Part shown: piece by piece, positions 19,801-64,000 of the stretch | Position numbering within the stretch: position 1 is the stretch's first letter | Layout: every line of letters starts with the position of its first letter | From: Ptiloglossa arizonensis | Lineage: Eukaryota; Arthropoda; Insecta; Hymenoptera; Colletidae | DNA: 64,000 bases | Direction: 5' to 3' | Assembly: GCF_051014685.1 (NCBI RefSeq) | Contig: NW_027478909.1 | Location: 62,001-126,000 of the forward strand | The notes under the pieces: generated by a model | The model's database searches: none | Seen by the model: the letters and a program-made list of their open reading frames with translations, nothing else | What the model was told of the DNA's origin: nothing | Program-made: the position numbers and the translations under genes

Positions 19801-20489
19801 GAAAATCTTGATGGATCTCAACCATTCCTTAACTTCATTCTCCCATTTCTCGCGAACGGAATGACGAACTCGAGAAATTCCTGTTGCATCTGAAAGTGGA
19901 AACTCGCCCGATTACAAAGGTATGTGCATTTTCCCCTAGTCCTTTGTAGTTATTGGTTTCGAGTATCAGACTTGCGAAAATTTTGATGGTTTCTCAAGCA
20001 TTCCTTAACTTCAAACTCCCATATCTCTCGAACGGAATGACGAACTCGAGAAATTCCTGTTGCATCTGAAAGTAGAAACTCGCCCGATTACATTGGTGTG
20101 TGTACTTTTCCCCAACGCCATTCCAGTTATTCGTTTCTAGCATCAGAATTGTGAAAATCTTGATGGTTTCTCAACCATTCCTTAACTTCAAACTCCCATA
20201 TCTCGCGAACGGAATGACGAACTCGAGAAATTCCTATTGCATCTGAAAGTGGAAACTCGCCCGATTAAAAAGGTATGTGCATTTTTCCCCTAGGCCTTTG
20301 TAGTTATTGGTTTCGAGTATCAGACTTGCGAATATTTCGATGGTTTCTCAACCATTCCTTAACTTCAAACTCCCATATCTCGCGAACGGATTGACGAACT
20401 CGAGAAATTCCTGTTGAACCTGGAAGCAGAAAATCGCCCGATTACAATGGTGTGTGTACTTTTCCCCTAGGTCATTCCAGTTATTGGTT

Positions 20490-24960: not shown

Positions 24961-25199
24961 TAATTTCAAACTCCCATATCTCGCGAACGGATTGACGAAA
25001 TCGAGAAATTCCAGTTGCATCTGAAAGCAGAAACTCGCCCGATTACAACGGTGTGTGTATTTTTCCCCTAGGCCATTGTAGTTATTGGTTTCCAGTATCA
25101 GACTTGCGAAAATTTTGATAGTTTCTCAACCATTCCTTAACTTCAATCTCCCATTTCTCGCGAACAGATTGACGAGCTCGAGAAATTCCTGTTGCATCT

Positions 25200-35000: not shown

Positions 35001-36030
35001 ACTTGCGAAAATTTTGATGGTTTCTTAACCATTCCTTAACTTCAAACTCCCATATCTCCCGAACGGATTGACGAACTCGAGAAATTCCTGTTGCATCTGA
35101 AAGTGGAAACTCGCCCGATTACAATGGTATGAGTATTTTTCTCCTAGGCCTTTGTAGTTATTGGTTTCGAGTATCAGACTTGCGAAAATTTTGATGGTTT
35201 CTCAAGCATTCCTTATCTTCAAACTCCCATATCTCGCGAACGGAATGACGAACTCGAGAAATTCCTGTTGCATCTGAAAGTGGAAACTCGCCCGATTACA
35301 AAGGTATGTGCATTTTCCCCTAGGCCTTTGTAGTTATTGGTTTCGAGTATCAGACTTTCGAAGATTTTGATGGTTTCTCAAGCATTCCTTAAGTTCAAAC
35401 TCCCATATCTCGCGAACGGATTGACGAACTCGAAAAATTCCTGTTGCATCTGAAAGTAGAAACACGTCCGATTACAAAGATATGTGTGTTTTTCCCCTAG
35501 GCTTTTGTAGTTATTGGTTTCGTGTATCAGACTTGCGAAAATTTTGATGGTTTCTTAACCATTCCTTAACTTCAAACTCCCATATCTCCCGAACGGATTG
35601 ACGAACTCGAGAAATGCCTGTTGCATCTTAAAGTAGAAACTCGCCCGACTACAAAGATATGTGTGTTTTTCACCTAGGCATTTGTAGTTATTGGTTTCGG
35701 GTGTCAGACTTGCGAAAATTTTGATAGCTTCTCAACCATTCCTTAACTTCAAACTCCCATTTCTCGCGAACGGATTGACGAACTCGAGAAATTCCTGTTA
35801 CATCTGAAAGTAGAAACTTGCCCGATTACAACGGTATGTGTATTTTTGCCCTAGATCATAGTAGTTATTGGTTTCGAGAATCAGACTTGTGAAAATTTTG
35901 ATCGTTTCTCAAGCATTCCTTAACTTCAAACTCCCATATCTCGCGAACGGATTGACGAACTCGAGAAATGCCTGTTGCATCTTAAAGTAGAAACTCGCCC
36001 GACTACAAAGATATGTGTGTTTTTCACCTA
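29040..36030. repeat. 27-monomer long-period HOR, offset about 4,775 bp
   Basis: Positions about 29,040-31,250 are collinear with 33,815-36,020. Markers are ACAAAGGTATGAGTA at 29,107 and 33,881, AGTAACAGACTTTCG at about 30,038 and 34,815, GAAGATTTTGATGG at about 30,582 and 35,358, and AAATGCCTGTTGCATC near 30,834 and 35,611. The offset is 4,774-4,775 bp (27 x 177 minus 4 or 5). The second copy carries a short insertion in its T-run near 34,777. About 31,261-32,210 then continues the match at 36,395-37,350 with offset 5,132, because two extra monomers were added in the second copy. Confidence 0.87.
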
Positions 36031-45000: not shown

Positions 45001-45520
45001 AAAGTAGAAACTCGCCCGTTTACAAAGATATGTGTGTTTTTCACCTAGGCCTTTGTAGCTATTGGTTTCGGGTATCAGGCTTGCGAAAATTTTGATAGTT
45101 TCTCAACCATTCCTTAACTTCAAACTCCCATTTCTCGCGAACGGATTGACAAACACGAGAAATTCCTGTCGCATATGAAAGTAGAAACTCGCCCGATTGC
45201 AATGGTGTGTGTACTTTTCCACTAGGCCATTCCAGTTATTGGTTTCGAGTATCAGACTTGCGAAAATGTTGATGGTTTCTCAACCATTCCTTAATTTCAA
45301 ACTCCCATATCTCGCGAACGGGTTGACGAACTCGAGAAATTCCTGTTGCATGTGAAAGTCGAAACTCGCCCGATTACAACGGTATGTGTATTTTTCCCCT
45401 AGGCCTTTGTATTTCTTGGTTTCGAGTATCAGACTTCCGAATATTTTGTTGGTTTCTCAAGCATTCCTTAACTTCAAACTCCCATATCTCGCGAACGGAT
45501 TGACGAACTCGAGAAATTCC
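32325..45520. repeat. Four related copies of a 1.6-2.0 kb satellite block
   Basis: A block starting with GACCATCGAAAATTTTGG or its GACCAGCG variant, and containing CTTGTTGCATGTG, CCTAGATCATAG (one copy has CGAGATCATAG) and CGAATACAGAG, is found at about 32,325-33,970, 38,170-40,140 and 40,650-42,615. CTTGTTGCAT lies at 32,431, 38,271 and 40,746, giving offsets of 5,840 and 2,475 bp. A fourth, partly overlapping copy at about 43,750-45,520 repeats 41,450-43,220 with an offset of 2,298 bp (13 monomers minus 3). Copies 2 to 4 share the shortened CCCCTAGGTTTGTAG, which copy 1 lacks, so they are more closely related to each other. Confidence 0.86.
35589..38170. repeat. Dimer and 8-mer expansions, periods 354 and 1,415 bp
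   Basis: The block marked by GAAATGCCTGTTGCATC, CCGACTACAAAG and TTTCGGGTGTCAG lies at about 35,611, 35,965 and 37,381. The first step is one dimer (354 bp). The second is eight monomers minus 1 bp (CCTGTTGCAT at 35,971 and 37,386, offset 1,415). The last copy ends in a chimaeric monomer near 38,160, where CTTCTGTAGTTATTGGTTT is joined to GGAGTATCAGACCATCG. Confidence 0.83.
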
Positions 45521-48500
45521 TGTTGCATCTGAAAGTAGAAACTCTCCCAATTACAACGGTATGTGTATTTTTCCCCTAGGCCATTGTAGTTATTGGTTTC
45601 AAGTATCAGACATGCGAAAATTTTGATGGTTCCTCAACCATTCCTTAACTTCAAACTCCCATATCTCGCGAACGGGTTGACGAACTCGAGAAATTCCTGT
45701 TGCACCTGAAAGTAGAAACTCGCCCGATTACAATGGTGTGGGTACTTTTCCCCTAGACCATTCCAGTTATTGGTTTCGAGTATCAGACTTTCGAAAATTT
45801 TGATGGTTCCTCAACCATTCCTTAACTTCAAACTCCCATATCTCGCGAAAGGATTGACGAACTCGAGAAATTCCTGTTGCAGCTGAAAATAGAAACTCGC
45901 CCGATTACAATGGTATGTGTACTTTTCCCCTAGGCCATTCCAGTTATTGGTTTCGAGTATCAGACCAGCGAATATTTTGATGGTTCCTCAACCATTCCTT
46001 AACTTCAAACTCCCATATATCGCGAACGGATTGACGAATTCGAGAAATTCCTGTTGTATCTGAAAGTACAAACACGCCCGATTACAATGCTGTTTGTACT
46101 TTTCCCCTAGGCCACTCCAGTTGTTGTTATCGAATATCAGACTTGCGAAAATTTTGATGGTTTCGCAACCATCTCTTAACTCCAAACTCCGATATTTCGC
46201 GAACGGATTGACGAACTCGAGAAATTCCTGTTGCATCTGAAAGTAGAAACTCGCCCGATTACAATGGTGTGTGTACTTTTCCCCTAGGCCATTCCAGTTA
46301 TTGGTTGCGAGTATCAGACCAGCGAAAATTTTGATGGTTTCTCAACCATTCCTTAATTTCAAACTCCCATATCTCGCGAACGGAATGACGAACTCGAGAA
46401 ATTCCTGTTGCATCTGAAAGTGGAAACTCGCCCGATTACAAAGGTATGTGCATTTTCCCCTAGGCCTTTGTAGTTAATTGTTTCGAGTATCAGACTTTCG
46501 AAAATTTTGATGGTTTCTCAAGCATTCCTTAAGTTCAAACTCCAATATCTCGCGAACGGATTGACGAACTCGAAAAATTCCTGTTGCATCTGAAAGTAGA
46601 AACACTCCCGATTACAAAGATATGTGTGTTTTTCCCCTAGGCTTCTGTAGTTATTGGTTTCGTGTATCAGACTTGCGAAAATTTTGATGGTTTCTTAACC
46701 ATTCCTTAACTTCAAACTCCCATATCTCATTAACGGATTGACGAACTCGAGAAGTTCCTGTTGCATCTAAAAGTAGAAACTCGCCCGATCACAAAGATAT
46801 GTGAGTTTTTCCCCTAGGCCTTTGTTGTTATTGGTTTCGAGTATCAGACTTGCCAAAATTTTGATGGTTTCTCAAGCATTCCTTAACTTCAAACTCCCAT
46901 ATCTCCAGAACGGATTGACGAATTCGAGAAATTCCTGTTGCATCTGAAAGTAGAAACACGCCCGATTACAATGGTGTGTGTACTTTTCCCATAGACCATT
47001 CCAGCTATTGGTTTCGATTATCAGACTTGCGAAAATTTTGATGGTTTCTCAACCATTCCGTATCTTCAAACTCCCATATCTCGCGAACGGTTTGACGAAC
47101 TCGAGAAATTCCTGTTGCACCTGAAAGTAGAAGCTCGCCCGATTACAATGGTGTGGGTACTTTTCCCCTAGACCATTCCAGTTATTGGTTTCGAGTATCA
47201 GACTTTCGAAAATTTTGATGGTTTCTCAAGCATTCCGTAACTTCACACTTCCATATCTCGCGAACGGATTGACGAACTCCAGAATTTCCTATTGCATCTG
47301 AAAGCAGAAACTCGCCCGATTACAACGGTATGTGCATTTTTGCCCTAGGCCATAGGAGTTATTGGTTTCAAGTATCAGACTTGCGAAAATTTTGATGGTT
47401 CCTCAACCATTCCTTAACTTCAAACTCCCATATCTCGCGAAAGGATTGACGAACTCGAGAAATTCCTGTTGCATCTGAAAGTAGAAACTCGCCCGATTAC
47501 AATGGTATGTGTACTTTTCCCCTAGGCCATTCCAGTTATTGGTTTCGAGTATCAGACCAGCGAATATTTTGATGGTTCCTCAACCATTCCTTAACTTCAA
47601 TCTCCCATATATCGCGAACGGATTGACGAATTCGAGAAATTCCTGTTGTATCTGAAAGTACAAACACGCCCGATTACAATTCTGTGTGTACTTTTCCCCT
47701 AGGCCACTCCAGTTGTTGTTATCGAATATAAGACTTGCGAAAATTTTGATGGTTTCGCAACCATCTCTTAACTCCAAACTCCGATATTTCGCGAACGGAT
47801 TGACGAACTCGAGAAATTCCTGTTGCATCTGAAAGTGGAAACTCGCCCGATTACAAAGGTATGTGCATTTTCCCCTAGGCCTTTGTAGTTAATTGTTTCG
47901 AGTATCAGACTTTCGAAAATTTTGATGGTTTCTCAAGCATTCCTTAAGTTCAAACTCCCATATCTCGCGAACGGATTGACGAACTCGAAAAATTCCTGTT
48001 GCATCTGAAAGTAGAAACACTCCCGATTACAAAGATATGTGTGTTTTTCCCCTAGGCTTTTGTAGTTATTGGTTTCGTGTATCAGACTTGCGAAAATTTT
48101 GATGGTTTCTTAACCATTCCTTAACTTCAAACTCCCATATCTCCCGAACGGATTGACGAACTCGAGAAATTCCTGTTGCATCTTAAAGTAGAAACTCGCC
48201 CGTTTACAAAGATATGTGTGTTTTTCACCTAGGCCTTTGTAGTTATTGGTTTCGGGTATCAGGCTTGCGAAAATTTTGATAGTTTCTCAACCATTCCTTA
48301 ACTTCAAACTCCCATTTCTCGCGAACGGATTGACGAACTCGAGAAATTCCTGTTGCATCTGAAAGTAGAAACTCGCCCGATTACAAAGATATGTGTGTTT
48401 TTCACCTAGGGCTTTGTAGTTAATGGTTTCGAGTATCAGATTTGCGAAAATTTTGATAGTTTCTCAACCATTCCTTAACTTCAAACTCCCATTTCTCGCG

Positions 48501-50490
48501 AACGGATTGACAAACACGAGAAATTCCTGTCGCATATGAAAGTAGAAACTCGCCCGATTGCAATGGTGTGTGTACTTTTCCCCTAGGCCATTCCAGTTAT
48601 TGGTTTCGAGTATCAGACTTGCGAAAATGTTGATGGTTTCTCAACCATTCCTTAACTTCAAACTCCCATATCTCGCGAACGGGTTGACGAACTCGAGAAA
48701 TTCCTGTTGCATGTGAAAGTCGAAACTCGTCCGATTACATCGGTATGTGTATTTTTCCCCTAGGCCTTTGTATTTCTTGGTTTCGAGTATCAGACTTCCG
48801 AAAATTTTGTTGGTTTCTCAAGCATTCCTTAACTTCAAACTCCCATATCTCGCGAACGGATTGCCGAACTCGAGAATTTCCTGTTGCATCTGAAAGTAGA
48901 AACTCTCCCAATTACAACGGTATGTGTATTTTTCCCCTAGGCCATTGTAGTTATTGGTTTCAAGTATCAGACATGCGAAAATTTTGATGGTTCCTCAACC
49001 ATTCCTTAACTTCAAACTCCCATATCTCGCGAACGGGTTGACGAACTCGAGAAATTCCTGTTGCATCTGAAAGTAGAAATTCGCCCGATTACAATGGTGT
49101 GTGTACTTTTCCCCTTGGCAATTCCAGTTATTGGTTTCGAGTATCAGACCAGCGAAAATTTTGATGGTTTCTCAACCAGTCCTTAACTTCACACTTCCAT
49201 ATCTGGCGAACCGATTGACGAACTCGAGAAATTCCTGTTGCATGTGAAAGTAGAAACTCGCCCGATTACAACGGTATGTGTATTTTTCCCCTAGGCCCTT
49301 GTAGTTATTGGTTTCGAGTATCAGAATTTCGAAAATTTTGATGGTTTCTCAAGCATTCCTTAACTTCAAACTCCCATATCTCGCTAACGGATTGACGAAC
49401 TCGAGAAGTTCCTGTTGCATCTAAAAGTAGAAACTCGCCCGATCACAAAGATATGTGAGTTTTTCCCCTAGGCCTTTGTTGTTATTGGTTTCGAGTATCA
49501 GACTTGCCAAAATTTTGATGGTTTCTCAAGCATTCCTTAACTTCAAACTCCCATATCTCCAGAACGGATTGACGAATTCGAGAAATTCCTGTTGCATCTG
49601 AAAGTAGAAACACGCCCGATTACAATGGTGTGTGTACTTTTCCCATAGACCGTTCCAGCTATTGGTTTCGATTATCAGACTTGCGAAAATTTTGATGGTT
49701 TCTCAACCATTCCGTATCTTCAAACTCCCATATCTCGCGAACGGTTTGACGAATTCGAGAAATTCCTGTTGCACCTGAAAGTAGAAACTCGCCCGATTAC
49801 AATGGTGTGGGTACTTTTCCCCTAGACCATTCCAGTTATTGGTTTCGAGTATCAGACTTTCGAAAATTTTGATGGCTTCTCAAGCATTCCGTAACTTCAC
49901 ACTTCCATATCTCGCGAACGGATTGACGAACTCGAGAATTTCCTATTGCATCTGAAAGCAGAAACTCGCCCGATTACAACGGTATGTGCATTTTTGCCCT
50001 AGGCCATAGGAGTTATTGGTTTCAGGTATCAGACTTGCGAAAATTTTGATGGTTCCTCAACCATTCCTTAACTTCAAACTCCCATATCTCGCGAAAGGAT
50101 TGACGAACTCGAGAAATTCCTGTTGCATCTGAAAGTAGAAACTCGCCCGATTACAATGGTATGTGTACTTTTCCCCTAGGCCATTACAGTTATTGGTTTC
50201 GAGTATCAGACCAGCGAATATTTTGATGGTTCCTCAACCATTCCTTAACTTCAAACTCCCATATATCGCGAACGGATTGACGAATTCGAGAAATTCCTGT
50301 TGTATCTGAAAGTACAAACACGCCCGATTACAATTCTGTGTGTACTTTTCCCCTAGGCCACTCCAGTTGTTGTTATCGAATATAAGACTTGCGAAAATTT
50401 TGATGGTTTCGCAACCATCTCTTAACTCCAAACTCCGATATTTCGCGAACGGATTGACGAACTCGAGAAATTCCTGTTGCATCTGAAAGT
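43313..50490. repeat. Four copies of a short block with ATATATCGCG and CCATCTCTTAACTCC
   Basis: The pair of monomers that carries CCCATATATCGCG, TTGTATCTGAAAGTAC and GCAACCATCTCTTAACTCC occurs at about 43,513, 45,988, 47,580 and 50,234. The spacings are 2,475, 1,592 and 2,654 bp, or 14, 9 and 15 monomers, each short by 1-3 bp. The upstream CTCGCGAAAGG marker accompanies all four copies. The unit moved with different amounts of flanking sequence each time. Confidence 0.86.
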
Positions 50491-52639
50491 AGAAACTCGC
50501 CCGATTACAATGGTGTGTGAACTTTTCCCCTAGGCCATTCCAGTTATTGGTTGCGAGTATCAGACCAGCGAAAATTTTGATGGTTTCTCAACCATTCCTT
50601 AATTTCAAACTCCCATATCTCGCGAACGGAATGACGAACTCGAGAAATTCCTGTTGCATCTGAAAGTGGAAACTCGCCCGATTACAAAGGTATGTGCATT
50701 TTCCCCTAGGCCTTTGTAGTTAATTGTTTCGAGTATCAGACTTTCGAAAATTTTGATGGATTCTCAAGCATTCCTTAAGTTCAAACTCCCATATCTCGCG
50801 AACGGATTGACGAACTCGAAAAATTCCTGTTGCACCTGAAAGTAGAAACACTCCCGATTACAAAGATATGTGTGTTTTTCCCCTAGGCTTTTGTAGTTAT
50901 TGGTTTCGTGTATCAGACTTGCGAAAATTTTGATGGTTTCTTAACCATACCTTAACTTCAAACTCCCATATCTCCCGAACGGATTGACGAACTCGAGAAA
51001 TTCCTGTTGCATCTTAAAGTAGAAACTCGCCCGTTTACAAAGATATGTGTGTTTTTCACCTAGGCCTTTGTAGTTATTGGTTTCGGGTATCAGGCTTGCG
51101 AAAATTTTGATAGTTTCTCAACCATTCCTTAACTTCAAACTCCCATTTCTCGCGAACGGATTGACGAACTCGAGAAATTCCTGTTGCATCTGAAAGTAGA
51201 AACTCGCCCGATTAAAAAGATATGTGTGTTTTTCACCTAGGGCTTTGTAGTTAATGGTTTCGAGTATCAGATTTGCGAAAATTTTGATAGTTTCTCAACC
51301 ATTCCTTAACTTCAAACTCCCATTTCTCGCGAACGGATTGACAAACACGAGAAATTCCTGTCGCATATGAAAGTAGAAACTCGCCCGATTGCAATGGTGT
51401 GTGTACTTTTCCCCTAGGCCATTCCAGTTATTGGTTTCGAGTATCAGACTTGCGAAAATGTTGATGGTTTCTCAACCATTCCTTAACTTCAAACTCCCAT
51501 ATCTCGCGAACGGGTTGACGAACTCGAGAAATTCCTGTTGCATGTGAATGTCGAAACTCGTCCGATTACAACGGTATGTGTATTTTTCCCCTAGGCCTTT
51601 GTATTTCTTGGTTTCGAGTATCAGACTTCCGAAAATTTTGTTTGTTTCTCAAGCATTCCTTAACTTCAAACTCCCATATCTCGCGAACGGATTGCCGAAC
51701 TCGAGAAATTCCTGTTGCATCTGAAAGTAGAAACTCTCCCAATTACAACGGTATGTGTATTTTTCCCCTAGGCCATTGTAGTTATTGGTTTCAAGTATCA
51801 GACATGCGAAAATTTTGATGGTTCCTCAACCATTCCTTAACTTCGAACTCCCATATCTCGCGAACGGGTTGACGAACTCGAGAAATTCCTGTTGCATCTG
51901 AAAGTAGAAATTCGCCCGATTACAATGGTGTGTGTACTTTTCCCCTTGGCAATTCCAGTTATTGGTTTCGAGTATCAGACCAGCGAAAATTTTGATGGTT
52001 TCTCAACCAGTCCTTAACTTCACACTTCCATATCTCGCGAACCGATTGACGAACTCGAGAAATTCCTGTTGCATGTGAAAGTAGAAACTCGCCCGATTAC
52101 AACGGTATGTGTATTTTTCCCCTAGGCCCTTGTAGTTATTGGTTTCGAGTATCAGAATTTCGAAAATTTTGATGGTTTCTCAAGCATTCCTTAACTTCAA
52201 ACTCCCATATCTCGCTAACGGATTGACGAACTCGAGAAGTTCCTGTTGCATCTAAAAGTAGAAACTCGCCCGATCACAAAGATATGTGAGTTTTTCCCCT
52301 AGGCCTTTGTTGTTATTGGTTTCGAGTATCAGACTTGCCAAAATTTTGATGGTTTCTCAAGCATTCCTTAACTTCAAACTCCCATATCTCCAGAACGGAT
52401 TGACGAATTCGAGAAATTCCTGTTGCATCTGAAAGTAGAAACACGCCCGATTACAATGGTGTGTGTACTTTTCCCATAGACCATTCCAGCTATTGGTTTC
52501 GATTATCAGACTTGCGAAAATTTTGATGGTTTCTCAACCATTCCGTATCTTCAAACTCCCATATCTCGCGAACGGTTTGACGAACTCGAGAAATTGCTGT
52601 TGCACCTGAAAGTAGAAACTCGCCCGATTACAATGGTGT
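47828..52639. repeat. Second 16-monomer HOR, period 2,831 bp
   Basis: Positions about 47,828-49,808 recur at 50,659-52,639. ATTACAAAGG lies at 47,850 and 50,681, and CGGTATGTGTATT lies 2,831 bp apart near 48,740 and 51,571. The copies diverge where GGTGTGGGTAC meets GGTGTGTGTAC (about 49,810 and 52,640). The period equals that of the HOR at the left end of the window, but the constituent monomers are different. Confidence 0.9.
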
Positions 52640-55155
52640 GTGTACTTTTCCCCTAGGCCATTCCAGTTATTGGTTTCGAGTATCAGACCATCGAAAATTT
52701 TGATGGTTTCACAACCATTCCTTAAATTCAAACTCCGATATCTCGCGAACGGATTGCCGAACTCGAGAAATTCCTGTTGCATGTGAAAGTAGAAACTCGC
52801 CCGATTACAACGGTATGTGTATTTTTCCCCTAGGCCTTTGTAGTTATTGGTTTCGAGTATTAGACTTTCGAAAATTTTGATGGTTTCCCAAGCATTCCTT
52901 AACTTCAAACTCCCTTATCTCACGAACGGATTGATGAACTCGAGAAATTCCTGTTGCATCTGAAAGTAGAAACTCGCCCGATTAAAATGGTATGTCAACT
53001 TTTCCCCTAGGCCATTCCAGTTATTGGTTTCGAGTATCTAACCAGCGAATATTTTGATGGTTCCTCAACCATTCCTTAACTTCAAACTCCCACATCTCGC
53101 GAACGGATTGACGAACTCGAGAAATTCCTGTTGCATGTGAAAGTAGAAACTCGCCCGATTACAACGGTATGTGTACTTTTCCCCTAGGCCATTCCAGTTA
53201 TTGGTTTCGAGTATCAGACCTGCGAAAATTTTGATGGTTCCTCAACCATTCCTTAACTTCAAACTCCCATATATCGCGAACGGATTGACGTACTCGAGAA
53301 ATTCCTGTTGCATTTGAAAGTAGAAACTCTCCCAATTACAACGGTATGCGTATTTTTCCCCCTAGGCCATTGTAGTTATTGGTTTCGAGTATCAGGCTTG
53401 CGAAAATTTTGATCGTTTCTCAACCATTCCTTAACTTCAAACTCCCACATCTCGCGAACGGATTGCCGAACTCGAGAAATTCCTGTTGCATCTGAAAGTA
53501 GAAACTCTCCCAATTACAACGGTATGTGTATTTTTCCCCTAGGCCATTGTAGTTATTGGTTTCAAGTATCAGACATGCGAAAATTTTGATGGTTCCTCAA
53601 CCATTCCTTAACTTCGAACTCCCATATCTCGCGAACGGGTTGACGAACTCGAGAAATTCCTGTTGCATCTGAAAGTAGAAATTCGCCCGATTACAATGGT
53701 GTGTGTACTTTTCCCCTTGGCAATTCCAGTTATTGGTTTCGAGTATCAGACCAGCGAAAATTTTGATGGTTTCTCAACCAGTCCTTAACTTCACACTTCC
53801 ATATCTCGCGAACCGATTGACGAACTCGAGAAATTCCTGTTGCATGTGAAAGTAGAAACTCGCCCGATTACAACGGTATGTGTATTTTTCCCCTAGGCCC
53901 TTGTAGTTATTGGTTTCGAGTATCAGAATTTCGAAAATTTTGATGGTTTCTCAAGCATTCCTTAACTTCAAACTCCCATATCTCGCTAACGGATTGACGA
54001 ACTCGAGAAGTTCCTGTTGCATCTAAAAGTAGAAACTCGCCCGATCACAAAGATATGTGAGTTTTTCCCCTAGGCCTTTGTTGTTATTGGTTTCGAGTAT
54101 CAGACTTGCCAAAATTTTGATGGTTTCTCAAGCATTCCTTAACTTCAAACTCCCATATCTCCAGAACGGATTGACGAATTCGAGAAATTCCTGTTGCATC
54201 TGAAAGTAGAAACACGCCCGATTACAATGGTGTATGTACTTTTCCCATAGACCATTCCAGCTATTGGTTTCGATTATCAGACTTGCGAAAATTTTGATGG
54301 TTTCTCAACCATTCCGTATCTTCAAACTCCCATATCTCGCGAACGGTTTGACGAACTCGAGAAATTCCTGTTGCACCTGAAAGTAGAAGCTCGCCCGATT
54401 ACAATGGTGTGCGTACTTTTCCCCTAGGCCATTCCAGTTATTGGTTTCGAGTATCAGACCATCGAAAATTTTGATGGTTTCACAACCATTCCTTAAATTC
54501 AAACTCCGATATCTCGCGAACGGTTTGCCGAACTCGAGAAATTCCTGTTGCATGTGAAAGTAGAAACTCGCCCGATTACAACGGTATGTGTATTTTTCCC
54601 CTAGGCCTTTGTAGTTATTGGTTTCGAGTATTAGACTTTCGAAAATTTTGATGGTTTCCCAAGCATTCCTTAACTTCAAACTCCCTTATCTCACGAACGG
54701 ATTGATGAACTCGAGAAATTCCTGTTGCATCTGAAAGTAGAAACTCGCCCGATTAAAATGGTATGTCAACTTTTCCCCTAGGCCATTCCAGTTATTGGTT
54801 TCGAGTATCTAACCAGCGAATATTTTGATGGTTCCTCAACCATTCCTTAACTTCAAACTCCCACATCTCGCGAACGGATTGACGAACTCGAGAAATTCCT
54901 GTTGCATGTGAAAGTAGAAACTCGCCCGATTACAACGGTATGTGTACTTTTCCCCTAGGCCAATCCAGTTATTGGTTTCGAGTATCAGACCTGCGAAAAT
55001 TTTGATGGTTCCTCAACCATTCCTTAACTTCAAACTCCCATATATCGCGAACGGATTGACGTACTCGAGAAATTCCTGTTGCATCTGAAAGTAGAAACTC
55101 TCCCAATTACAACGGTTTGCGTATTTTTCCCCCTAGGCCATTGTAGTTATTGGTT
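51690..55155. repeat. 10-monomer HOR, period 1,771 bp
   Basis: Positions about 51,690-53,385 recur at about 53,460-55,155. CCCTTATCTCACG is shared near 52,911 and 54,682, as are GGTATGTCAACTTTTC and TTCCCCCTAGG. The offset of 1,771 bp is ten monomers plus 1 bp, the only long period here that exceeds a multiple of 177. It overlaps the right copy of the preceding 16-mer and is therefore a later event. Confidence 0.88.
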
Positions 55156-55688
55156 TCGAGTATCAGCCTTGCGAAAATTTTGATGGTTTCTCAACCATTC
55201 CTTAACTTCAAACTCCCATATCTCGCGAACGTGTTGACGAACTCGAAAAATTCCTGTTGCATGTGAAAGTAGAAGCTCGCCCGATTACAACGGTATGTGT
55301 ATTTTTCACCTAGGCCTTTGTAGTTATTGGTTTCGAGTATCAGGCTTGCGAAAATTTTGATCGTTTCTCAACCATTCCTTAACTTCAAACTCCCACATCT
55401 CGCGAACGGATTGACGAACTCGAGAAATTCCTGTTGCATGTGAAAGTAGAAACTCGCCCGATTACAACGGTATGAGTACTTTTCCCCTAGGCCATTCCAG
55501 TTATTGGTTTCGAGTATCAGACCTGCGAAAATTTTGATGGTTTCTCAACCATTCCTTAACATCAAACTCCCATATCTCGCGAACGGATTGACGTACTCGA
55601 GAAATTCCTGTTGCATCTGAAAGTAGAAACTCGCCCGATTACAATTGTGTGTGTACTTTTCCCCTAGGCCATTCCAGTTATTGGTTTC

Positions 55689-55920
55689 ATTAACGTCTTC
55701 ACGCTCTCACACGCCTTACAAAAATTTTGTTTTCTACTTGTTCTCACATCTTAAATAATTATTCTAAGTTCGCAGCCAATTAGCTCGGCGTTACTCGTGG
55801 TAAGTGATACTTCGTCGCGAGTAATACCGATTACCAGGTCTCACCACGTGGAGGTTGCTGCGAGCGGAGACCCGGAGAGAGATAGATGGAATGAAAGTTT
55901 CATCGATCTCCCTCGACACG
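55689..55920. other. Satellite edge and unrecognised flank
   Basis: The last monomer is normal up to GTTATTGGTTTC, then changes abruptly to ATTAACGTCTTCACG. The following 230 bp show no similarity I can see to the monomer or to the rest of the window. They contain a short inverted pair, GGTCTC (55,837-55,842) and GAGACC (55,867-55,872), and another formed by TTACTCG and CGAGTAA about 20 bp apart near 55,790-55,823. No gene is apparent. A 63-codon open frame here runs into the adjoining repeat and has no recognisable features. Confidence 0.7.
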
Positions 55921-55989
55921 CGATACAATCGAAGATACTAAACCAAAGAGATGGAAAGTATCAATTTTCCTTCGATCTCCTTGTTTAGT

Positions 55990-56391
55990 TCTGCCAAGCA
56001 ATTACATTATGGAAAAATTAGGCAAAATTGGGAAAGACGCGACACGAACCGTGCAGTTGGTCCTACTAGGTCTATCCCATTTCCCCTTCGTGGTTCCGAT
56101 TCCAGAGAAAACGAACGACGCCTACCACTCCCCTAGAGGAGTGCCCCGTTTCTCCATCTTTACGACGAGAGGGTCTTATTTTGGAGACTTTCGCAGGGAC
56201 CGGCAAAAATGCCTGCTCCTGTGGTCGCAACATGCCCCCTCTGGAAGCGGACACACCGGAAGAGACGGCGATAGGCCGTTCGGACTACTTATACGGCCGG
56301 CCACTTGCTTGTACAAGAAGCAGTGGTGACCGGACCGAGGAACGAGGAAGCGAGCAAAATTACGCTAAAGATTGGATAATTGCTTGGCAGA
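55990..56391 (+). mobile_element. Hairpin-rich short TIR element, copy 1 (402 bp)
   Basis: It is bounded by perfect 15-bp inverted repeats, TCTGCCAAGCAATTA (55,990-56,004) and TAATTGCTTGGCAGA (56,377-56,391). It is about 44 bp shorter than the other copies because it lacks the CCACGC-AAA-GCGTGG hairpin. An internal stem at about 56,129-56,146, CACTCC and GGAGTG around CCTAGA, differs in sequence from the corresponding stem of copy 2. The size and TIRs fit a MITE-like element or a structured repeat. No target-site duplication is visible. The 106-codon frame inside is not conserved. Confidence 0.75.
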
Positions 56392-56466
56392 TCACAGCCT
56401 TAAAATTAACTTATTCTAACTGCAGAGATCAACGGAATCAATGTTCCTTTGATCTCCTCGTTTAAT
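56392..56466. other. Linker between short element copies 1 and 2
   Basis: About 75 bp ending in GATCTCCTCGTTTAATTC. It resembles the 75 bp before copy 1 and the 70 bp that follow copy 3 at the window end, all of which carry TCAAT, TTCC and GATCTCC in order. Element plus linker therefore form a tandem repeat of about 477 bp. Confidence 0.65.
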
Positions 56467-56912
56467 TCTGCCGAGCAATTACATTATGGAAAAATTAGGC
56501 GAAATTGGGAAATACGCGACACGAACCGTGGAGTTGCTCCTACTAGGTCGGTCCCGTTTCCCCTCAGTGGGCCCGATTAAAGAGGAAATGCACGACGCCG
56601 TCCACTCATATAGAGTGCCCCGTTTCTCCCAACTCCGCGTCAGGAACCACGCAAAGCGTGGACCTGACTCACGGAAGATGACAAAGAGAGGGTCTTGTGG
56701 CACAAGGACTTCCGCAGGGACCGGTGCGAACACCTGCCCCTGTGTTCGCAGCATATTCTCTCTCAAAGCGGACGCACCAGAAGAGACAGCGATCGAGCGT
56801 TCGGTCCACCTCCACGGCCGGTCACTTGTTTATGCAACAAGCAGAGGTGGCCGGACTGAGATACGAGCAAGCGAGCAAAAAGAAGTTAAAGATTGGATAA
56901 TTGCTCGGCAGA
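56467..56912 (+). mobile_element. Hairpin-rich short TIR element, copy 2 (446 bp)
   Basis: The perfect 15-bp ends are TCTGCCGAGCAATTA (56,467-56,481) and TAATTGCTCGGCAGA (56,898-56,912). Internal stems are CACTC-ATATA-GAGTG (56,603-56,617), TCAGG-AA-CCACGC-AAA-GCGTGG-A-CCTGA (56,640-56,667), and TGCGAACAC (56,725-56,733) with GTGTTCGCA (56,742-56,750). A further stem near 56,816-56,858 combines CCGGTCA/TGGCCGG outside with CTTGTT/AACAAG inside. A 149-codon frame starting at 56,486 overlaps most of it. I do not call this a gene, because comparison with copy 3 shows about nine amino-acid-changing against two silent differences, then a frameshift. Confidence 0.78.
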
Positions 56913-56999
56913 TCACAGATACTCGTACATGGTAACCTTAAAACTAACTTAGTCTATACTTAGAATTAACAGTCCCGCGGAGGATGCAATACATCAGTC

Positions 57000-57023
57000 C
57001 TCTTCGTTCTTCGTTCTTCGTTT
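57000..57023 (-). repeat. Short heptamer tract in the left arm (about 3 units)
   Basis: CTTCGTTCTTCGTTCTTCG follows AGTCCT and is the mirror partner of the long heptamer array in the right arm, which is also bounded by AGTGTCCTCTTCG on the reverse strand. Only about three 7-bp units are present here. This is the clearest length difference between the two arms. Confidence 0.85.
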
Positions 57024-57460
57024 TCCGATACATCTAAGAGAATGTATCTAAGAGAAACCTAAGAGAAACCTAAAGTCATGGCATAATAGAAAATAGAAAT
57101 GAATTTGGTTAGTGGAAAAAAATAAACACGTCAAAACAAGTAGAAATTAAAATCAGAGTAAAAATGAAATGAATTAGACAAAGAAACAGTTAGAAAAAAA
57201 AAAGAAAGGATTGAGAGAGTGGTTGCCAGTACTGACCACCGCTTACCGGCGGCCAGTACCGGTTACCATGGTGAGAGATCCCCCTTCCATACACCTAAAA
57301 CGAAGAGATGCGTCCACCTCGGAGGCTTCGGGAACAATGAAATTTTAAACAACCGGGGGCTCCTTATATACCCTCCCCAAGGTGACTTACCGTTTCTTCC
57401 ATTGTCTTTGTTCGATCTAATCGAAATCTTCGAAGGCGAACGGTTTCGGTGAATGTTTGT
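57024..57460 (+). repeat. Left arm AT-rich strip and GC-rich block
   Basis: An AT-rich strip with repeated AAGAGAAACCTAA (to about 57,190) is followed by a GC-richer block with CCAGTACTGACCACCGC, CAGTACCGGTTACC, AACAACCGGGGGCTCC and GATCTAATCGAAATC. Both recur as reverse complement at about 62,360-62,820 with base changes. For example, CACCATGG-like TACCATGGTGAGAG on the left corresponds to a CAAGGTGGGGG version on the right. The 77-codon frame here has no counterpart in the right arm, so I leave it out as coding. Confidence 0.75.
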
Positions 57461-58670
57461 TCATTTCCGCGATTGTTACTAACATTTATGCACGTTTCCA
57501 ATATTGATCGAACAATGTGCATCTTATTTATGTATTGCAATTAATTAAGAAACTTATAGAAATTGATTTTGATCGAGACTCGATGTTAAAACGTGTTTCG
57601 TAAAGTTTTAAAGCATGGAAAGTAACAATTGTTCATTAAATACATTAATTTAACATTTGTTTAATTCTTATAATTTACACAATACGCGTAGAAGTGGTAT
57701 TTTTTACATAAAAGTGCCGAAATTCAATTAATCGCTTTTTTAGTTAGAAAAATCACCGCGATGAAGACTTGTGAATCGATAATCGATACCTGTAGCCTTG
57801 AAAATGTCAGTTGGATCTCAGCGAAAAATTCCTTCGCGAACAAAGAATATTTCAACGAAATGATATTTTAAGCCATTATTTATACTAGGAAATAGTTAAT
57901 AATTGTTCAAACTACGGTCCTACGACGGTTATTAATAATTATGATAAATAAACATCAAGATATTGCAAAATCTGCGAAGGAGAACGGTTTCTGTGAATGT
58001 ATCTTCCTATATGCGATTGTTATTAACTTTTTCGCGTGCTCCCAATATTAATCGAACAATGTACATCTTATCTATGCATTACAAATGATTAAGTAACTTA
58101 TAGAAATTGATTTTGATCGAGATTCGAAGTGAAAACGTGTTTCGTAAAGATTTAATGCATAGAAAGTAGTAATTGTCTATTTGGTACATTAATTTAACAT
58201 TTATTTAATTCTTATAATTTACACAATACGTGCAGAAGTTGCATTTTTTACTTAAAAGTGGCACAATTCAATTAATCGCTTTTCTAAATAGAAAAATTAT
58301 CGTGATGAACACTTGTGAATCGATCATCGATACCTGTAACATTGAGAATATCAGTTGGATCTCAACGAAAAATTCCTTCGTGAACAAAGAATATTTTAAC
58401 GAAATGATATTTTAAGCCATTATTTATACTAGGACATTGTTAATAATTGTTTAAACTATGGTCCAGCGACGGTTGTTAATGATTATGATAAATAAACATC
58501 AAGATATTGCAAAATCTATGAAGAAGAACGGTTTTGGTAAATGTTTTTTCATTTCCGTGATTGTTATTAACATTTACGCACGTTCCGAATATTAACATTA
58601 CAATGTGCATCTTGTTTGTGCATTATAAGTCATTAATTACTTTACAAATATTAATTTCGATCGAAAATCG
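57430..58670 (+). repeat. Interior units 1-3, forward, period 544 bp
   Basis: The landmark CGATTGTTA(C/T)TAAC occurs at 57,470, 58,014 and (as TGATTG) 58,558, exactly 544 bp apart both times. Each unit runs through CAATGTGCATCTTATTTATG, GTGTTTCGTAAAG, a dyad AATCGATAATCGAT (about 57,774; variant near 58,318), CCATTATTTATACTAGGA and GATAAATAAACATCAAGATATTG. The base composition is strongly AT-rich. All reading frames are short and differ between units, so I see no coding function. Confidence 0.82.
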
Positions 58671-58679
58671 AGAAACATA

Positions 58680-59866
58680 TGAATACCACGTTTTACTTCA
58701 ATTCTCGATGAAATTTAATTTCTATAGGCAAATCAATAATTTACAATGCATAACTAAGATGCATTCTCTCACATAAATGTTCGAAACATGCATAAATGTT
58801 AATAACAATCGCCTGGATGAACAACAATTCACTGAAACCGTTCCCCTTCGCAGATTTCGCAATATCTTGATGTTCATTCATCAGAATTATTAACAACCGT
58901 CGTAGCACCATGGTATAAAAAATTATTAACAATGTCCTGGTATAAATAATGGATTAAAACATTATTTTTCATAGAAGTATTTTTCATTCGCGAAATCGTG
59001 GCACTTCCTCGCATATCATATACTCCTGACAACAAGAGTCCCAACATTGAACATTTTCTACAATTTATGTCTGAATTTCATCCTTTGGTATGAGGAGAAC
59101 ACTGTCGCCAAGGAAGTATGCATTTCGATTTCTCAAGTACTAATCAAATGTTACATCGATATATCTAATAGACAATTATTACTTTCAATATTTTAAAACT
59201 TTAAGAAACACCTCTTTACTTCGGAGCTCGATCAAAATTAATTTCTATAAGTTTCTTAATCATTTGTGATGCATAAATAATATGCACATTGTTCAATTAA
59301 TATTGGGAGCACATATAAATGTTACTAACAATCGCGGAAATGGACAAACATTCACCGAAACCGTTCGCCTTCGCAAATTTAGCAATATCTTGACGTTTAT
59401 TTATCATAATTATTAACAAGCGTCGTGGGACCGTAGATTAAACAATTATTAACATTGTTTTAGCATAAATAATGGCTTGAAAGTCATCACTTTCTGGAAA
59501 TATTTGTTAGATTGAACAAAGACAATCGAAGTAACCGTGCGATAAAATAAATGAATATTTCTCTACATATCGAAATTATAGTCTGTATATATGCAAATAT
59601 GTATTCTGAACGCTCAGTGACACACATATGTCACACGGCAATGAAGTGGGTTGCCATCTACTAGAGAATAGGTAACCTACACTTAAGGTGTGAAAACACA
59701 TGGCGGAGAAACGCTCAAGTTTGTTGAGGAATTGTTCTTATTTCCACCAACAGATAGCGCCACGAACATAAATTTACCGACATTAAAGATATGTAATCCC
59801 ATTTGTATAATATTCCCTACCGTGCGATAAAATAAATAAATATTTCTCTACATATCGAAATTATTG
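58680..59866 (-). repeat. Inner inverted-repeat arm, left
   Basis: Two interior units lie here in reverse orientation (CAATCG at 58,806 and 59,329, 523 bp apart), followed by a distinct element of about 280 bp. The reverse complement of this arm is collinear with 60,421-61,580: 59,329 pairs with 60,932 and 58,806 with about 61,457, both giving a centre near 60,131. The stretch 59,000-59,140 has no partner in the right arm and looks like a replacement. I recognise nothing in that stretch. Confidence 0.8.
59536..59866 (+). repeat. Element flanked by about 48-bp direct repeats
   Basis: ACCGTGCGATAAAATAAATG at 59,536 and its near copy at about 59,819 start two direct repeats of roughly 48 bp, each continuing through ATTTCTCTACATATCG. 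Between them are a GTGACA/TGTCAC dyad, TTGCCATCTACTAGAG, a near-palindrome ACACTTAAGGTGT and CAACAGATAGCGCCA. An inverted copy lies at about 60,421-60,735. The identity is unknown. It could be a small non-autonomous element that inserted before the inner inversion formed. Confidence 0.65.
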
Positions 59867-60420
59867 TTTGTGATGCATGCAAATATGATCTGAAATTCCA
59901 AACATTTGCAACGTGGTAATTATATGGGTTGCCGTCTCTTGGAGAACATATTTGTTAACTTTCGCGATTGTTACTAACATTTATGCATGTTCTCAATATT
60001 AATCGAACAATATGTATCTTATTTATGCATGGTAAATGATTTTACTTATAGAAATTGATTTTGATCGAGATTCAAAGTAAAAACTTGTTTCGTAAAGTTT
60101 GAAAGCAAGGAAAGTAATAATTGTCTATTTACTGCAATAGTTTAGCATTTATTTGATTCCCATAATTTACACAATACGCGTAGAATTTGTATTTCTTACT
60201 CAAACGTGCTGAATTTCGACTAATCGCTTTTCTATGTAGAAAAATCATCGTAATAAACACTTGTGAGTCGATAATCGATATGTGTAGCCATGATTTCGAG
60301 GTATCAAAAATTTTTTTAAATGTATAAAGGAAGGCTAGAATGCAGAGAAATTTCATTACGCTGATTTCGTTTAACTTTACATTTATTCGAAAGATGATAC
60401 ATACGAAACTTTGTACAAAA
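59867..60420 (+). repeat. Spacer of the inner palindrome with one partial forward unit
   Basis: A partial interior unit in forward orientation (CGATTGTTACTAAC at 59,965) runs to about 60,300, including GTCGATAATCGATATG. From there to 60,420 I see AT-rich sequence with no clear relative in the window. The 75-codon frame on the reverse strand falls in the repeated unit and is not kept in the other unit copies. Confidence 0.65.
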
Positions 60421-61580
60421 ATATTTATTTATTTTATTGCACGGTAGGGAATACCATACAAATGGAAATACTTATCTGTAATGTCGGTAAATTATGCATG
60501 TGGCGCTATCTATTGGTGGAAATAACAACAATTCCTCAACAAACTTGAGCGTTTCTCCGCCAGGTGTTTTCACACCTTAAGTGTAGTTTACCTATTCTCT
60601 AGTAGATGGCAACCCACTTCATTGCCGTGTGACATATGTGTGTCACTGAGCGTTCGGAATATACATGCATATATACAAACTATTTTTTCGATATGTAGAG
60701 AGATATTCATTTATTTTATCGCACGGTTACTTCGATTGTCTTTGTTCGATCTAACAAATATTTCCAGAAAGTAATGACTTTTAAGCCATTATTTATACTA
60801 GAACATTGTTAATAATTGTCTAAAGTATGGTCCTATGACGGTTGTTAATAAATATGATAAATAAACATCGAGATATTGCAAAATCTGCGAAGACGAACGG
60901 TTTCGGTGAATGTTTGTTCATTTCCGCGATTGTTACTAACATTTATGCATGTTCTCAATATTAATTGAACAATGTGCATCTTATTTATGCATTAAAAATG
61001 ATTAAGTAACTTACAGAAATTGTTTTTGATCGAGATTTATAGTAAAACGTGTTTCGGAAAGTTTTAAAGCATGGAAAGTAACAATTGTTTATTAGATACA
61101 TTAATTTAACATTTGTTTAATTTTTATAATTTACACAATACGTATAGAAGTTTCATTTTTTACTCCAAAGCGGCGAAATTCAATTAATCGCTTTTCTGAA
61201 TAGAACAATCTTCGCGATGATCGATACGTGTAGCCTTGAGAATGTCGGTTGCACCTCAATGAAAAATTCCTTCCTGAACAAAGAATATTTCAACGAAATG
61301 ATATTTTAAACCATTATTTATACTAGGAAATTGTTAATAATTGTTTAATCTACAATCCTACGACGATTGTTAATAAATATGATAAATGAACGTCAGGATA
61401 TTGCGAAATCTGCGAAGGCGAACGGTTTCGGTGAATGTTTGTTCATTTCCGCGATTGTTACTAACATTTATACATGTTCCGAACATTTATCTTACAATAT
61501 GCATCTTATTTATGCATTAAATATGATTGATTCGCCTACAGCAATTAATTTTGACCGAGATTCGAGGTATAAACGTTGTT
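60421..61580 (+). repeat. Inner inverted-repeat arm, right
   Basis: It opens with the inverted form of the 59.5-kb element (TTATTGCACGGTAGGG; ends near ATCGCACGGTTACTTCG at about 60,720-60,736). It continues into forward interior units with landmarks at 60,927 and 61,452. The shared markers TTCGATTGTCTTTGTTCGATC and CCAGAAAGTAATGACTTTTA mirror the left arm at about 59,480-59,530. Differences such as CGCTATCTATTGG against CAGATAGCGCC positions show that the arms have diverged. Confidence 0.8.
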
Positions 61581-62270
61581 TATTAGATACATTAATTTAA
61601 CATTTGTATCTTATAATTTTCGGATTATGCGTGGAAGCTGTATTCTTGATGTAAAAGCGTCGAAATTCAATTAATCGCTTTTCTAGATAGAAAAACCATC
61701 GTGATAGACGTTTGTGAATCGATAAACATTTCCAGCCTTGACAATGTCGGTTTGATCTCAATAAGAACAATTCCATCGCGAACAAAGAACATTTCAACGA
61801 AATGATATTTTAAGCCATTATTTATACTAGGACATTGTTAATAATTGTTTAATCTACGGTCCTACGACCGTTGTTAATAATTATGATAAACAAACATCAA
61901 GATATTGCGAAATCTGGGAAGGCGAATTGCTTTAGCGAATGTTTATGTCTCTAGGCGATTGTTAGAAACATTTTTCCACGTTCCGAACTTTTATGTTACA
62001 GTATGTGAATTAAATTTTATCGGAAAATTTAACGAAGAGTTTGGTATACATATATTTCTCCATTTTTTATGAAAATTAACATTTGTAAACTAATTAATGG
62101 TTTGCACTGTAAAAGTTGGGAATATGAATGTTACAAAATGCATTTTCTTTTGCATTGTAAATGAATAATTTGCTTATAAAGATTAATTTAGGTTGCAAAT
62201 CGAGAAATATATGAATATCAATATTTTGCTTTCATTTTCAAAATCAATTAATTTCTGAAAACTAACTAAT
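61581..62270 (+). repeat. Further forward unit and unassigned AT-rich stretch
   Basis: A forward interior unit continues here, with its landmark at 61,956 (504 bp after the previous one) and CCATTATTTATACTAGGA at about 61,816. From about 62,000 to 62,160 the sequence is AT-rich and unlike the other units. From about 62,180 it resembles 58,640-58,730, sharing AAATCGAGAAA(C/T)ATATGAAT. No gene is visible. Confidence 0.65.
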
Positions 62271-62822
62271 GATTTATGATACCTAAATAAGATGCATATT
62301 GTTCGATCAATATTGGGAACATGCATAAATGTTAATAACAATCGCGGAAATGAACAAACATTCACCGAAACCGTTCGCCTTCGAAAATTTCGATTAGATC
62401 GAACAAAGACAATGGAAGAACCGGTAAGTGACCTTACGGAGGGTTTATAAGGAGCCCCCGGTTGTTTAAAATTTCATTCTTCCTGGAGCCTCGGAGGTGG
62501 ATGGATCTCTTCGTTTTAGGTTTATGGAAGGGGGACCCCCACCTTGGTAACCGGTACTGGCCGCCGGTAGGCGGTGGTCAGTACTGGCGACCATTCTCTC
62601 AATCCTTTCTTTGGTTTTTAATTGTTTCTTTCTGTAATTTATTTTATTTGTTCTCTGATTTTACTTTGTACTTGTTTTTCCATGTTTATTTTTTTGTCAT
62701 TCTTGCCTTTATTTCCTTTGTTACTGAATGACTGTATTTAATCACTAACCAACTTCATTTCTATTTTCTATCATTTTTTTATCATGCCTTGACTTTAGGT
62801 TTCTCTTAGGTAGGCACACCGG

Positions 62823-63399
62823 AGAACGAAGAACGAAGAACGAAGAACGAAGAACGAAGAACGAAGAACGAAGAACGAAGAACGAAGAACGAAGAACGAA
62901 GAACGAAGAACGAAGAACGAAGAACGAAGAACGAAGAACGAAGAACGAAGAACGAAGAACGAAGAACGAAGAACGAAGAACGAAGAACGAAGAACGAAGA
63001 ACGAAGAACGAAGAACGAAGAACGAAGAACGAAGAACGAAGAACGAAGAACGAAGAACGAAGAACGAAGAACGAAGAACGAAGAACGAAGAACGAAGAAC
63101 GAAGAACGAAGAACGAAGAACGAAGAACGAAGAACGAAGAACGAAGAACGAAGAACGAAGAACGAAGAACGAAGAACGAAGAACGAAGAACGAAGAACGA
63201 AGAACGAAGAACGAAGAACGAAGAACGAAGAACGAAGAACGAAGAACGAAGAACGAAGAACGAAGAACGAAGAACGAAGAACGAAGAACGAAGAACGAAG
63301 AACGAAGAACGAAGAACGAAGAACGAAGAACGAAGAACGAAGAACGAAGAACGAAGAACGAAGAACGAAGAACGAAGAACAAAGAACGAAGAACGAAGA
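62823..63399 (+). repeat. GAAGAAC heptamer microsatellite, about 82 units
   Basis: 577 bp of an essentially perfect 7-bp repeat (GAAGAAC on this strand). One base change is visible near its right end, GAACAAAG at about 63,378-63,385. Two long frames on the reverse strand encode only a seven-residue repeat, because three heptamers make seven codons and no stop arises. I treat them as an artefact of periodicity. The purine-only bias of the strand (A and G with one C per unit) is notable for replication slippage. Confidence 0.98.
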
Positions 63400-63485
63400 G
63401 GACACTATCGTCGCAACCGCCGTGGGATCTTTAGTTAAGCTTGGAATAAGTTAATTTTAAGGCCACCGTGTACAAATATCTGTTA

Positions 63486-63930
63486 TCTGTCAAGCAATTA
63501 TCCAATTTTTAGCTTATCTTTGCTCGCTTCCTCGTTCTTCAGCCCGGTCATCACTGCTTGTTGCATAAGCAAGTGACCGGCCGTGTAGGTGGTCCGAACG
63601 GTCGATCGCCGTCTCTTCTGGTGCGTCCGCTTCCAGAGAGAACATGCTGCGACCACAGAGGCAGGTGTTCGCATCGGTCCCTGTGGAAGCCCTGTGCCAT
63701 AAGGCCCTCTCTTCGTCATCCTCCGTGAGTCAGGTCCACGCTTTGCGTGGGTCCTGATGCGGAGTTGGGAGAAACGGGGCACTCTATATGAGTGGACGGC
63801 GTCGTGCATTTCCTCTTTAATCGGGCCCACTGAGGGGAAACGGGACCGACCTAGTAGGACCAACTGCACGGTTCGTGTCGCGTCTTTTCCAATTTTGCCT
63901 AATTTTTCCATAATGTAATTGCGTGGCAGA
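63486..63930 (-). mobile_element. Hairpin-rich short TIR element, copy 3 (445 bp, inverted)
   Basis: The ends are TCTGTCAAGCAATTA (63,486-63,500) and TAATTGCGTGGCAGA (63,916-63,930), inverted repeats with two mismatches. On the reverse strand it keeps the CCACGC-AAA-GCGTGG hairpin (63,730-63,757), and a CCGGTCA/TGACCGG outer stem that is fully paired here. The TGCGA-A-CAC/GTG-G-TCGCA stem has one mismatch relative to copy 2. Its 152-codon frame shares its first part with copy 2 but shifts frame after a 1-bp loss, so I do not call it coding. Confidence 0.77.
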
Positions 63931-64000
63931 ACTAAACGAGGAGATCGAAGGAACATTGATTCCTTCCATCTCTTTGGTTTAGTATCTTCGTTTGTATCGG

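Follow-up and report, generated by a model that had tools for sequence, protein, structure and literature searches.

A nested palindrome recurs as a spacer in a giant satellite repeat of the bee Ptiloglossa arizonensis

Introduction

How does a palindrome of more than 8 kb come to stand beside a satellite array, and is it a mobile element that landed there or a part of the repeat itself? The question is raised by a 64,000-nucleotide stretch of the bee Ptiloglossa arizonensis (Colletidae), here called the window (assembly GCF_051014685.1, contig NW_027478909.1, positions 62,001 to 126,000; C539:62001-126000 in our numbering of the 2,016 contigs of this 998.67-Mb assembly). An initial annotation, made from the letters alone, described the structure at the right end of the window as either a composite Foldback-like element or a palindrome built by successive inverted duplications. 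Huge heterochromatic arms are known cytologically in bees and wasps and, to our knowledge, the copied unit of such heterochromatin is seldom visible at base level. We report that the window palindrome is not a freely inserted element but a fixed spacer that belongs to a giant satellite repeat. From sequence comparison we further consider it fairly probable that the palindrome forms the non-coding spacer module within a giant heterochromatic repeat and is a chimera of two foldback-type lineages, amplified with the satellite and with octamer arrays.

Results

The joint between the satellite and the left end of the palindrome, searched as a 31-bp pattern with up to two mismatches, has 215 matches in the assembly (94 forward, 121 reverse), in one satellite phase, and the left end by itself, the palindrome-side half of that pattern, has 223; the reversed controls gave 0 in both cases. 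Site lists comprise the first 100 exact matches, so that spacings are overestimated. Among the 100 joints listed of 215, 46 of 54 adjacent pairs lie on the same strand (p = 1.4e-7) at a median spacing of 270 kb, an overestimate, and among the left ends listed 49 of 58 neighbours share a strand, with a spacing of 293 kb. A 541-bp piece of the right arm has at least 40 full-length matches at 99-100% identity, the window included (40 of 2,522 first-look candidates were scored). Nine copies, namely the window and eight of the 39 other full-length matches, were read at length and compared. The left neighbour is satellite in seven of the nine; the right flank is identical in type in all nine and is accompanied by an array of the octamer AGAAACGG in eight, the contig of the ninth ending before such an array could appear. 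A walk along C39 (20 samples of 500 bp plus two fuller stretches) met a palindrome, octamers first on the plus and then on the minus strand, pieces of mitochondrial-like and unit sequence, satellite for about 110 kb as sampled, and the next palindrome, with a period of 154 kb. The arrangement thus recurs in register and in orientation with the satellite, as in a higher-order satellite repeat with a spacer. Hence, given one joint with 215 matches, a left end with 223 and a right flank shared by nine copies, the window palindrome is not an individual insertion.

On satellite-type contigs the left and right ends mostly go together. The right-end pattern matches the assembly at 434 sites, 168 of them forward and 266 reverse, with 0 for the control, and its pairing with left ends was counted from the first 100 exact matches, with four left-end sites added from the joint list. 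On contigs C17-C53, 45 of the 51 right ends listed have a left end in the same orientation no more than 14 kb away, and opposed pairs are absent among these matches, which contradicts the idea that the two arms are independent elements always found separately.

From edge to edge the palindrome spans 55,772-64,151 (8,380 bp), so that its right arm overruns the window by 151 bp; the module edge GCAGCC... lies at 55,772 and its mirror copy at 64,151, outside the window. Self-BLAST of the window matches the nested arms at 77-89%. For the outer arms the matches are 55921-56397/63480-63999 (77.5%), 56424-57022/63378-63973 (87.6%) and 57116-57568/62246-62695 (88.1%), and for the inner arms 59141-59852/60412-61119 (89.0%) and 58685-58984/61281-61579 (81.1%). 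The best inverted match, 712 bp and 923 bits, compares with at most 52 bp and 42.8 bits in 50 dinucleotide shuffles from which the heptamer was omitted, and a chance origin of the palindrome was therefore rejected. The mirror centre lies at 59.91 kb just inside the heptamer, and the inner arms are centred on 60.13 kb; in the B pair, outside the heptamer, it is at 60.20 kb, and for the outermost pair it returns to 59.95 kb, where the left arm carries one extra A-type unit. The shift of about 0.28 kb across the heptamer fits half of the difference in heptamer length, which is 577 bp in the right arm and about 22 bp in the left. From the outside to the centre, the left half consists of modules A0, A and B, the short heptamer, module mid, core units on the plus strand, an inversion, core units on the minus strand, module ins and the loop. 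The right half is its mirror, minus one A-type unit, with a long heptamer and other numbers of core units, and beyond its last module, A0', comes the right flank and then the AGAAACGG array, starting at 64,716. Core units measure about 525-545 bp and occur in both orientations, and the unit array changes direction within each half (near 58,685 and 62,131, by self-BLAST). A 31-bp motif, defined post hoc after inspection of the sequence, marks the four borders of the two unit blocks (57390, 59507, 60724 and 62394, on strands +, -, + and -) and has 0 occurrences in 100 shuffles. CpG observed/expected ratios are 0.66-1.75 and, taken together with the mitochondrial-like pieces described below, would by themselves suggest an insect, perhaps a bee or wasp. 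The geometry proposed in the initial annotation, with nested inverted arms centred near 59.9-60.2 kb, a centre displaced by the unequal heptamers and a core of units of about 500-545 bp in both orientations, is thus borne out by these measurements.

Across copies the arms are uniform within a side and distinct between sides. In module B (6 left and 10 right sequences) identity is 99.3% left-left, 99.0% right-right and 90.9% left-right; in mid (7 left, 6 right) the values are 98.7, 99.8 and 90.4%, and in ins (5 left, 6 right) 97.9, 98.7 and 93.4%. Fixed left/right differences number 37 in B, 25 in mid and 14 in ins, with 1, 0 and 1 shared polymorphisms, respectively. This uniformity within sides, together with the fixed differences, suggests that there is little sign of arm-to-arm conversion since the palindrome spread. 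The arm divergence of about 10% was also considered as a sign that the palindrome is by that much older than its amplification, an argument weakened by the module trees of its relatives on C8.

These relatives lie on large contigs. On C1-C12, 20 of the 49 right ends listed form 10 opposed pairs, 4.7-10.9 kb apart, and a left end is present for 4 of the 49. Two opposed pairs, both on C8, were read at length: C8a (5.07 Mb) and C8b (13.83 Mb). C8b is mirror symmetric (97.4%) throughout the 8.8 kb read, and samples of its surroundings at 13,819 and 13,839.5 kb match no module; C8a is a mirror at 97.4% over 1,760 bp. Within the two C8 elements the facing arms are 99.8 and 100% identical in B and 97.4 and 99.8% in mid. 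The window's own arms pair in none of the four module trees (B, mid, A0, ins). Instead, window left B and left mid cluster with C8a (support 1.00 and 0.84), and window right mid clusters with C8b (split 0.998). Long inverted arms with internal tandem repeats, as in foldback elements, are found both in the window and in the C8 relatives, and the module edge GCAGCC[AG]ATTAGCTCGG adjoins three different flanks. The stretches read, which in the dispersed copies stop short of the ends, yielded no target duplication, outer end or transposase; in the window copy no direct repeat was seen across the two edges, the left one being the shared joint and the right one meeting a different flank. The relatives on the large contigs may be giant foldback-type elements, and the parental lineages may have been mobile.

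The palindrome lacks any coding part as far as it has been scanned: the 15 open reading frames (ORFs) searched, out of 21 of at least 60 aa in 55.6-64 kb, have no Pfam match above cut-off, and a coding element was rejected on these scans. Two Pfam matches below cut-off (E = 0.2 and 0.033) were dismissed. One ORF of the palindrome found no relatives in a protein search. Rfam and tRNA searches that covered 54-64 kb or 55-64 kb gave no match; there was no RNA family above gathering score in six further loci, and no match in sequence-pattern searches of a viral collection and of a genome collection.

Copies vary in length and arrangement. The distance from the left end to right-arm mid falls into discrete length classes of 3.7-7.9 kb in 19 of 24 right-arm matches. 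At the position of the partial inverted unit (62246..62390), C39, C1768, C373, C37, C40 and C17 hold about one unit extra. In C373:146001-156000 two copies of the right end (flank, A0, B, heptamer) stand 7.7 kb from each other, separated by octamers, as might follow from exchange between heptamer and octamer arrays; length classes and duplicated right end look like unequal exchange. In C116:85001-90700 two satellite-palindrome joints point towards one another across 4.9 kb, and the inverted copies are 95.5% identical over 1,031 bp, which makes this probably a newer inverted duplication that takes in satellite. A second arrangement is seen on C2 (3.8-4.4 Mb) and C254, where same-strand palindromes are spaced tens of kb apart; in the one copy read per contig ins, unit and octamers flank the palindrome and the satellite joint is absent.

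Mitochondrial-like stretches lie inside the repeat unit (L011:4795-9440, L029:1-4260 and L051:2722-8010, from C539 and C39) and were read, by eye and with translation table 5 only, as nd5, cox3, atp6, cox2, cox1 and nd2. Between C39 and C539 they are 95.7-98.8% alike, and an adjoining unit stretch is 99.0% alike, so that these pieces were amplified together with the rest of the repeat unit. A core unit of about 0.5 kb interrupts the mitochondrial-like sequence and is bordered on each side by the 16-bp word GAAGTAATTTATTACT, as might be left after an insertion with target duplication; it runs in L011 from 9,473 to the end and into L029 1-7, the right-hand copy of the word spanning the seam of the adjacent stretches. 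The (AGAAACGG)n octamer arrays flip strand at a palindromic centre, GAGAAACGTTTCT, in 8 of the 9 flip points listed (in L016, L017, L018, L019, which has two, L023, L029, L030 and L054); the deviating centre is at L019 8,799.

The features of the window are collected in Table 1. The non-unit piece at 58995-59134 is found again in the right flank beyond the window. In module mid of both arms, TATA-like sequences (TATATAAGG, TTTATAAGG) face outward at 57362-57371 (-) and 62421-62452 (+), and GGTAAGT words are also present; both were read by eye.

Table 1. Features of the window, in window coordinates.
Feature	Position	Strand	Basis
Array of 177-bp satellite units, about 315 copies, without higher-order periodicity up to lag 40	4..55688	+	TRF and unit analysis
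preA, satellite-palindrome junction sequence; only the last ~19 bp resemble the right side	55689..55771	+	
Left arm modules A0 and A; module edge GCAGCCAATTAGCTCGG	55772..56420	+	
Left arm module B, second A-type unit copy	56424..57000	+	
Short left-arm heptamer tract; 22 bp matched in left arm of 6 other copies	57001..57022	-	
Left arm module mid, closing with 31-bp border motif at 57390-57420	57040..57420	+	
Core units, 544 bp, 2.3 copies	57424..58671	+	
First inversion point of unit array	58672..58690	.	self-inverse 58377-58994
Inverted core units, broken by non-unit piece 58995-59134	58687..59504	-	
Module ins, about 1.4 copies of 285-bp repeat; border motif 59507-59537 on - strand	59505..59946	+	
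Central loop, made of part of a core unit and 118 bp of loop sequence	59948..60411	+	
Right-half module ins; border motif at 60724-60754	60412..60756	-	
Right-half core units	60757..61982	+	
Second inversion point of unit array (R2)	62008..62246	.	self-inverse 62023-62239
Partial inverted core unit	62246..62390	-	
Right arm module mid, border motif 62394-62424	62394..62815	-	
Expanded heptamer (AGAACGA)n, 82 copies; length differs among copies	62823..63399	+	TRF and copy comparison
Right arm module B'	63400..63973	-	
Start of right-arm module A0', ending at 64,151 beyond the window	63974..64000	-	

Discussion

The arrangement could have arisen as follows. Recombination between two lineages of giant foldback-type palindromes would have produced a chimeric palindrome, which would then have been joined to the satellite on one side and to an octamer array on the other. 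The resulting composite unit, of the order of 100-400 kb, may have been copied through heterochromatin by unequal exchange or segmental amplification, with the purine-rich repeats and the unit repeats of the palindrome acting as sites of unequal exchange. The palindrome would now be carried passively, with no need of activity of its own. Of the two origins offered at the outset, Foldback-like applies to ancestry, in that the relatives are palindromic, have the same modules and bear the same right end at both ends; it fails for the window copy as an individual insertion, in view of the 215 joints, the 223 left ends and the right flank common to nine copies. Successive inverted duplications agree with inversions at several scales, but a chimera of two lineages accounts better for the arm divergence of about 10% than age alone does.

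Several observations weigh against this account. On C1-C12, 25 of the 49 right ends listed fit neither the paired nor the opposed form, and 5 of the 24 right-arm matches, all on C2, have no left end nearby among those listed, although in both counts misses may be overcounted. The copies on C2 and C254 have a mixture of ins, unit and octamers on their left where satellite would be expected, and a tenth copy, on C116, which was selected for its pair of opposed joints, ends in satellite on either side and lacks the right flank. The relatives are themselves imperfect: farther out the arms of C8a match at just 90.0%, C8a joins octamers and an nd2-like mitochondrial-like piece on one side (this piece being 95.1% identical to its counterpart on C39), and in a C8 element mirror symmetry extends past the module edge in the stretch read. 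Moreover, right B is not nearer to C8b than to C8a (91.7 vs 92.4%), and the left arm of ins is, by raw identity, nearest to the right arm (93.2%, vs 92.9% for C8b). Because right B and ins are ambiguous, the assignment to two parents rests mainly on mid and left B, in a comparison that covers the two relatives read at length. One shared polymorphism each in B and ins also leaves room for rare arm-to-arm conversion.

The most substantial rival, which we consider less probable, dispenses with a transposon altogether: the palindromes would have formed by repeated inverted duplication in place, through hairpin or template-switch repair in repeat-rich DNA, and spread only by segmental duplication and exchange, near-identical arms reflecting recent formation or arm-to-arm conversion. 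It would account for inversions at several scales (the unit arrays, the octamer strand flips, the 95.5% arms of C116), for mirror symmetry that goes on beyond the module edge on C8, and for the failure to find either a target duplication or a transposase in the stretches read and the ORFs scanned. It sits less well with one module edge that meets three different flanks and with opposed same-end pairs at 10 places among the right ends listed on large contigs, which look like a mobile unit with defined ends. An ordinary Foldback transposon inserted in the satellite array would likewise have long inverted arms, internal tandem repeats and no coding part, as found here; a single insertion was nevertheless rejected on the shared joint, and such an origin is very improbable when one joint has 215 matches in one satellite phase and mostly one orientation, when the right flank is non-satellite in nine copies, and when the two-sided satellite of C116 is the left end mirrored. 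Palindromes are a known artefact of single-molecule reads, and chimeric hairpin reads might be invoked for the structure itself. Such an artefact of sequencing or assembly was rejected and is scarcely credible for arms about 10% apart whose fixed differences are common to several contigs, and for a joint with 215 matches.

It is also conceivable, though improbable, that the palindrome is kept for a present function in heterochromatin, such as that of a boundary, a replication site or a pairing site. In most copies read it sits at the transition between two arrays, and the layout parallels the hypomethylated spacers described for ape subterminal caps in the excerpt consulted (PMC12058530). On the other hand, length variants with internal deletions are tolerated, the copies on C2 and C254 do without the satellite joint, and no known RNA or protein family turned up in the regions and ORFs scanned.

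Comparisons with known systems refer to excerpts of the papers cited. The closest in kind is the Drosophila virilis foldback transposon Tetris, from which satellite arrays were seeded (PMC4079207). Tetris is apparently non-autonomous and modular, exists in many rearranged forms and has inverted arms with internal tandem repeats; its arrays abut a satellite and are tied to the growth of satellite-like arrays in heterochromatin (PMC4079207). Here, in contrast, what is amplified along with the satellite is a spacer of palindromes, about 5-9 kb long between module edges, and the repeats are of about 545, 285, 7 and 8 bp. Also near is Galileo, of the P superfamily in Drosophila mojavensis, with copies whose two arms come from different subfamilies and are discussed as products of recombination (PMC3573991). 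Galileo arms reach about 1.26 kb at most; 7-bp target duplications accompany the majority of copies, with non-matching 7-bp flanks in the chimeric ones (PMC3573991), whereas neither a transposase nor a target duplication was found here in the stretches read. In ape subterminal caps, satellite tracts of 335-536 kb are broken by one duplicated spacer in hundreds of copies (over 477 in gorilla, over 345 in Pan) (PMC12058530). The layout of a spacer in satellite and a similar spacing are common to the caps and to the unit described here (PMC12058530); the ape spacers are segmental duplications of 32-34 kb and of euchromatic origin (PMC12058530), while here the spacer consists of a palindrome, octamer arrays and mitochondrial-like pieces.

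Among bees, the honeybee repeats AluI (176 bp) and AvaI (547 bp), for which the accessions X57427 and X89539 are given (PMC6454739), resemble the two main repeats here in unit length. Kinship with them was suggested by length alone, and AvaI was dropped since the four similar sub-repeats described for it (PMC6454739) are not evident in the 544-bp unit, in which none stood out. The assembly of the bee Xylocopa violacea is likewise about 1 Gb in size (1.02 Gb), with repeat masking over 80% of its length, but the main satellite of that bee is a 109/217-mer and not a 177-bp repeat (PMC11589580). In the open-licence literature we found no named precedent for the palindrome and, among the top-ranked results, no report of such an arrangement in bees or wasps.

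Saltatory growth of heterochromatin has been cited for the huge heterochromatic arms of bees and wasps (PMC11589580, excerpt). Tentatively, giant foldback palindromes could be a building block of such growth: exchange between two of them would capture the end of a satellite, and blocks of 100-400 kb would multiply until there were hundreds of them, a parallel in an insect to the ape caps that would have arisen independently. In the genome of P. arizonensis one can say which unit is copied, where it is joined, how it is oriented and in what variants it occurs, and the fixed differences between left and right arms offer natural markers with which unequal exchange, arm conversion and new inverted duplication may be separated and timed. 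The locus thus gives a sequence-level view of heterochromatin growth in large blocks.

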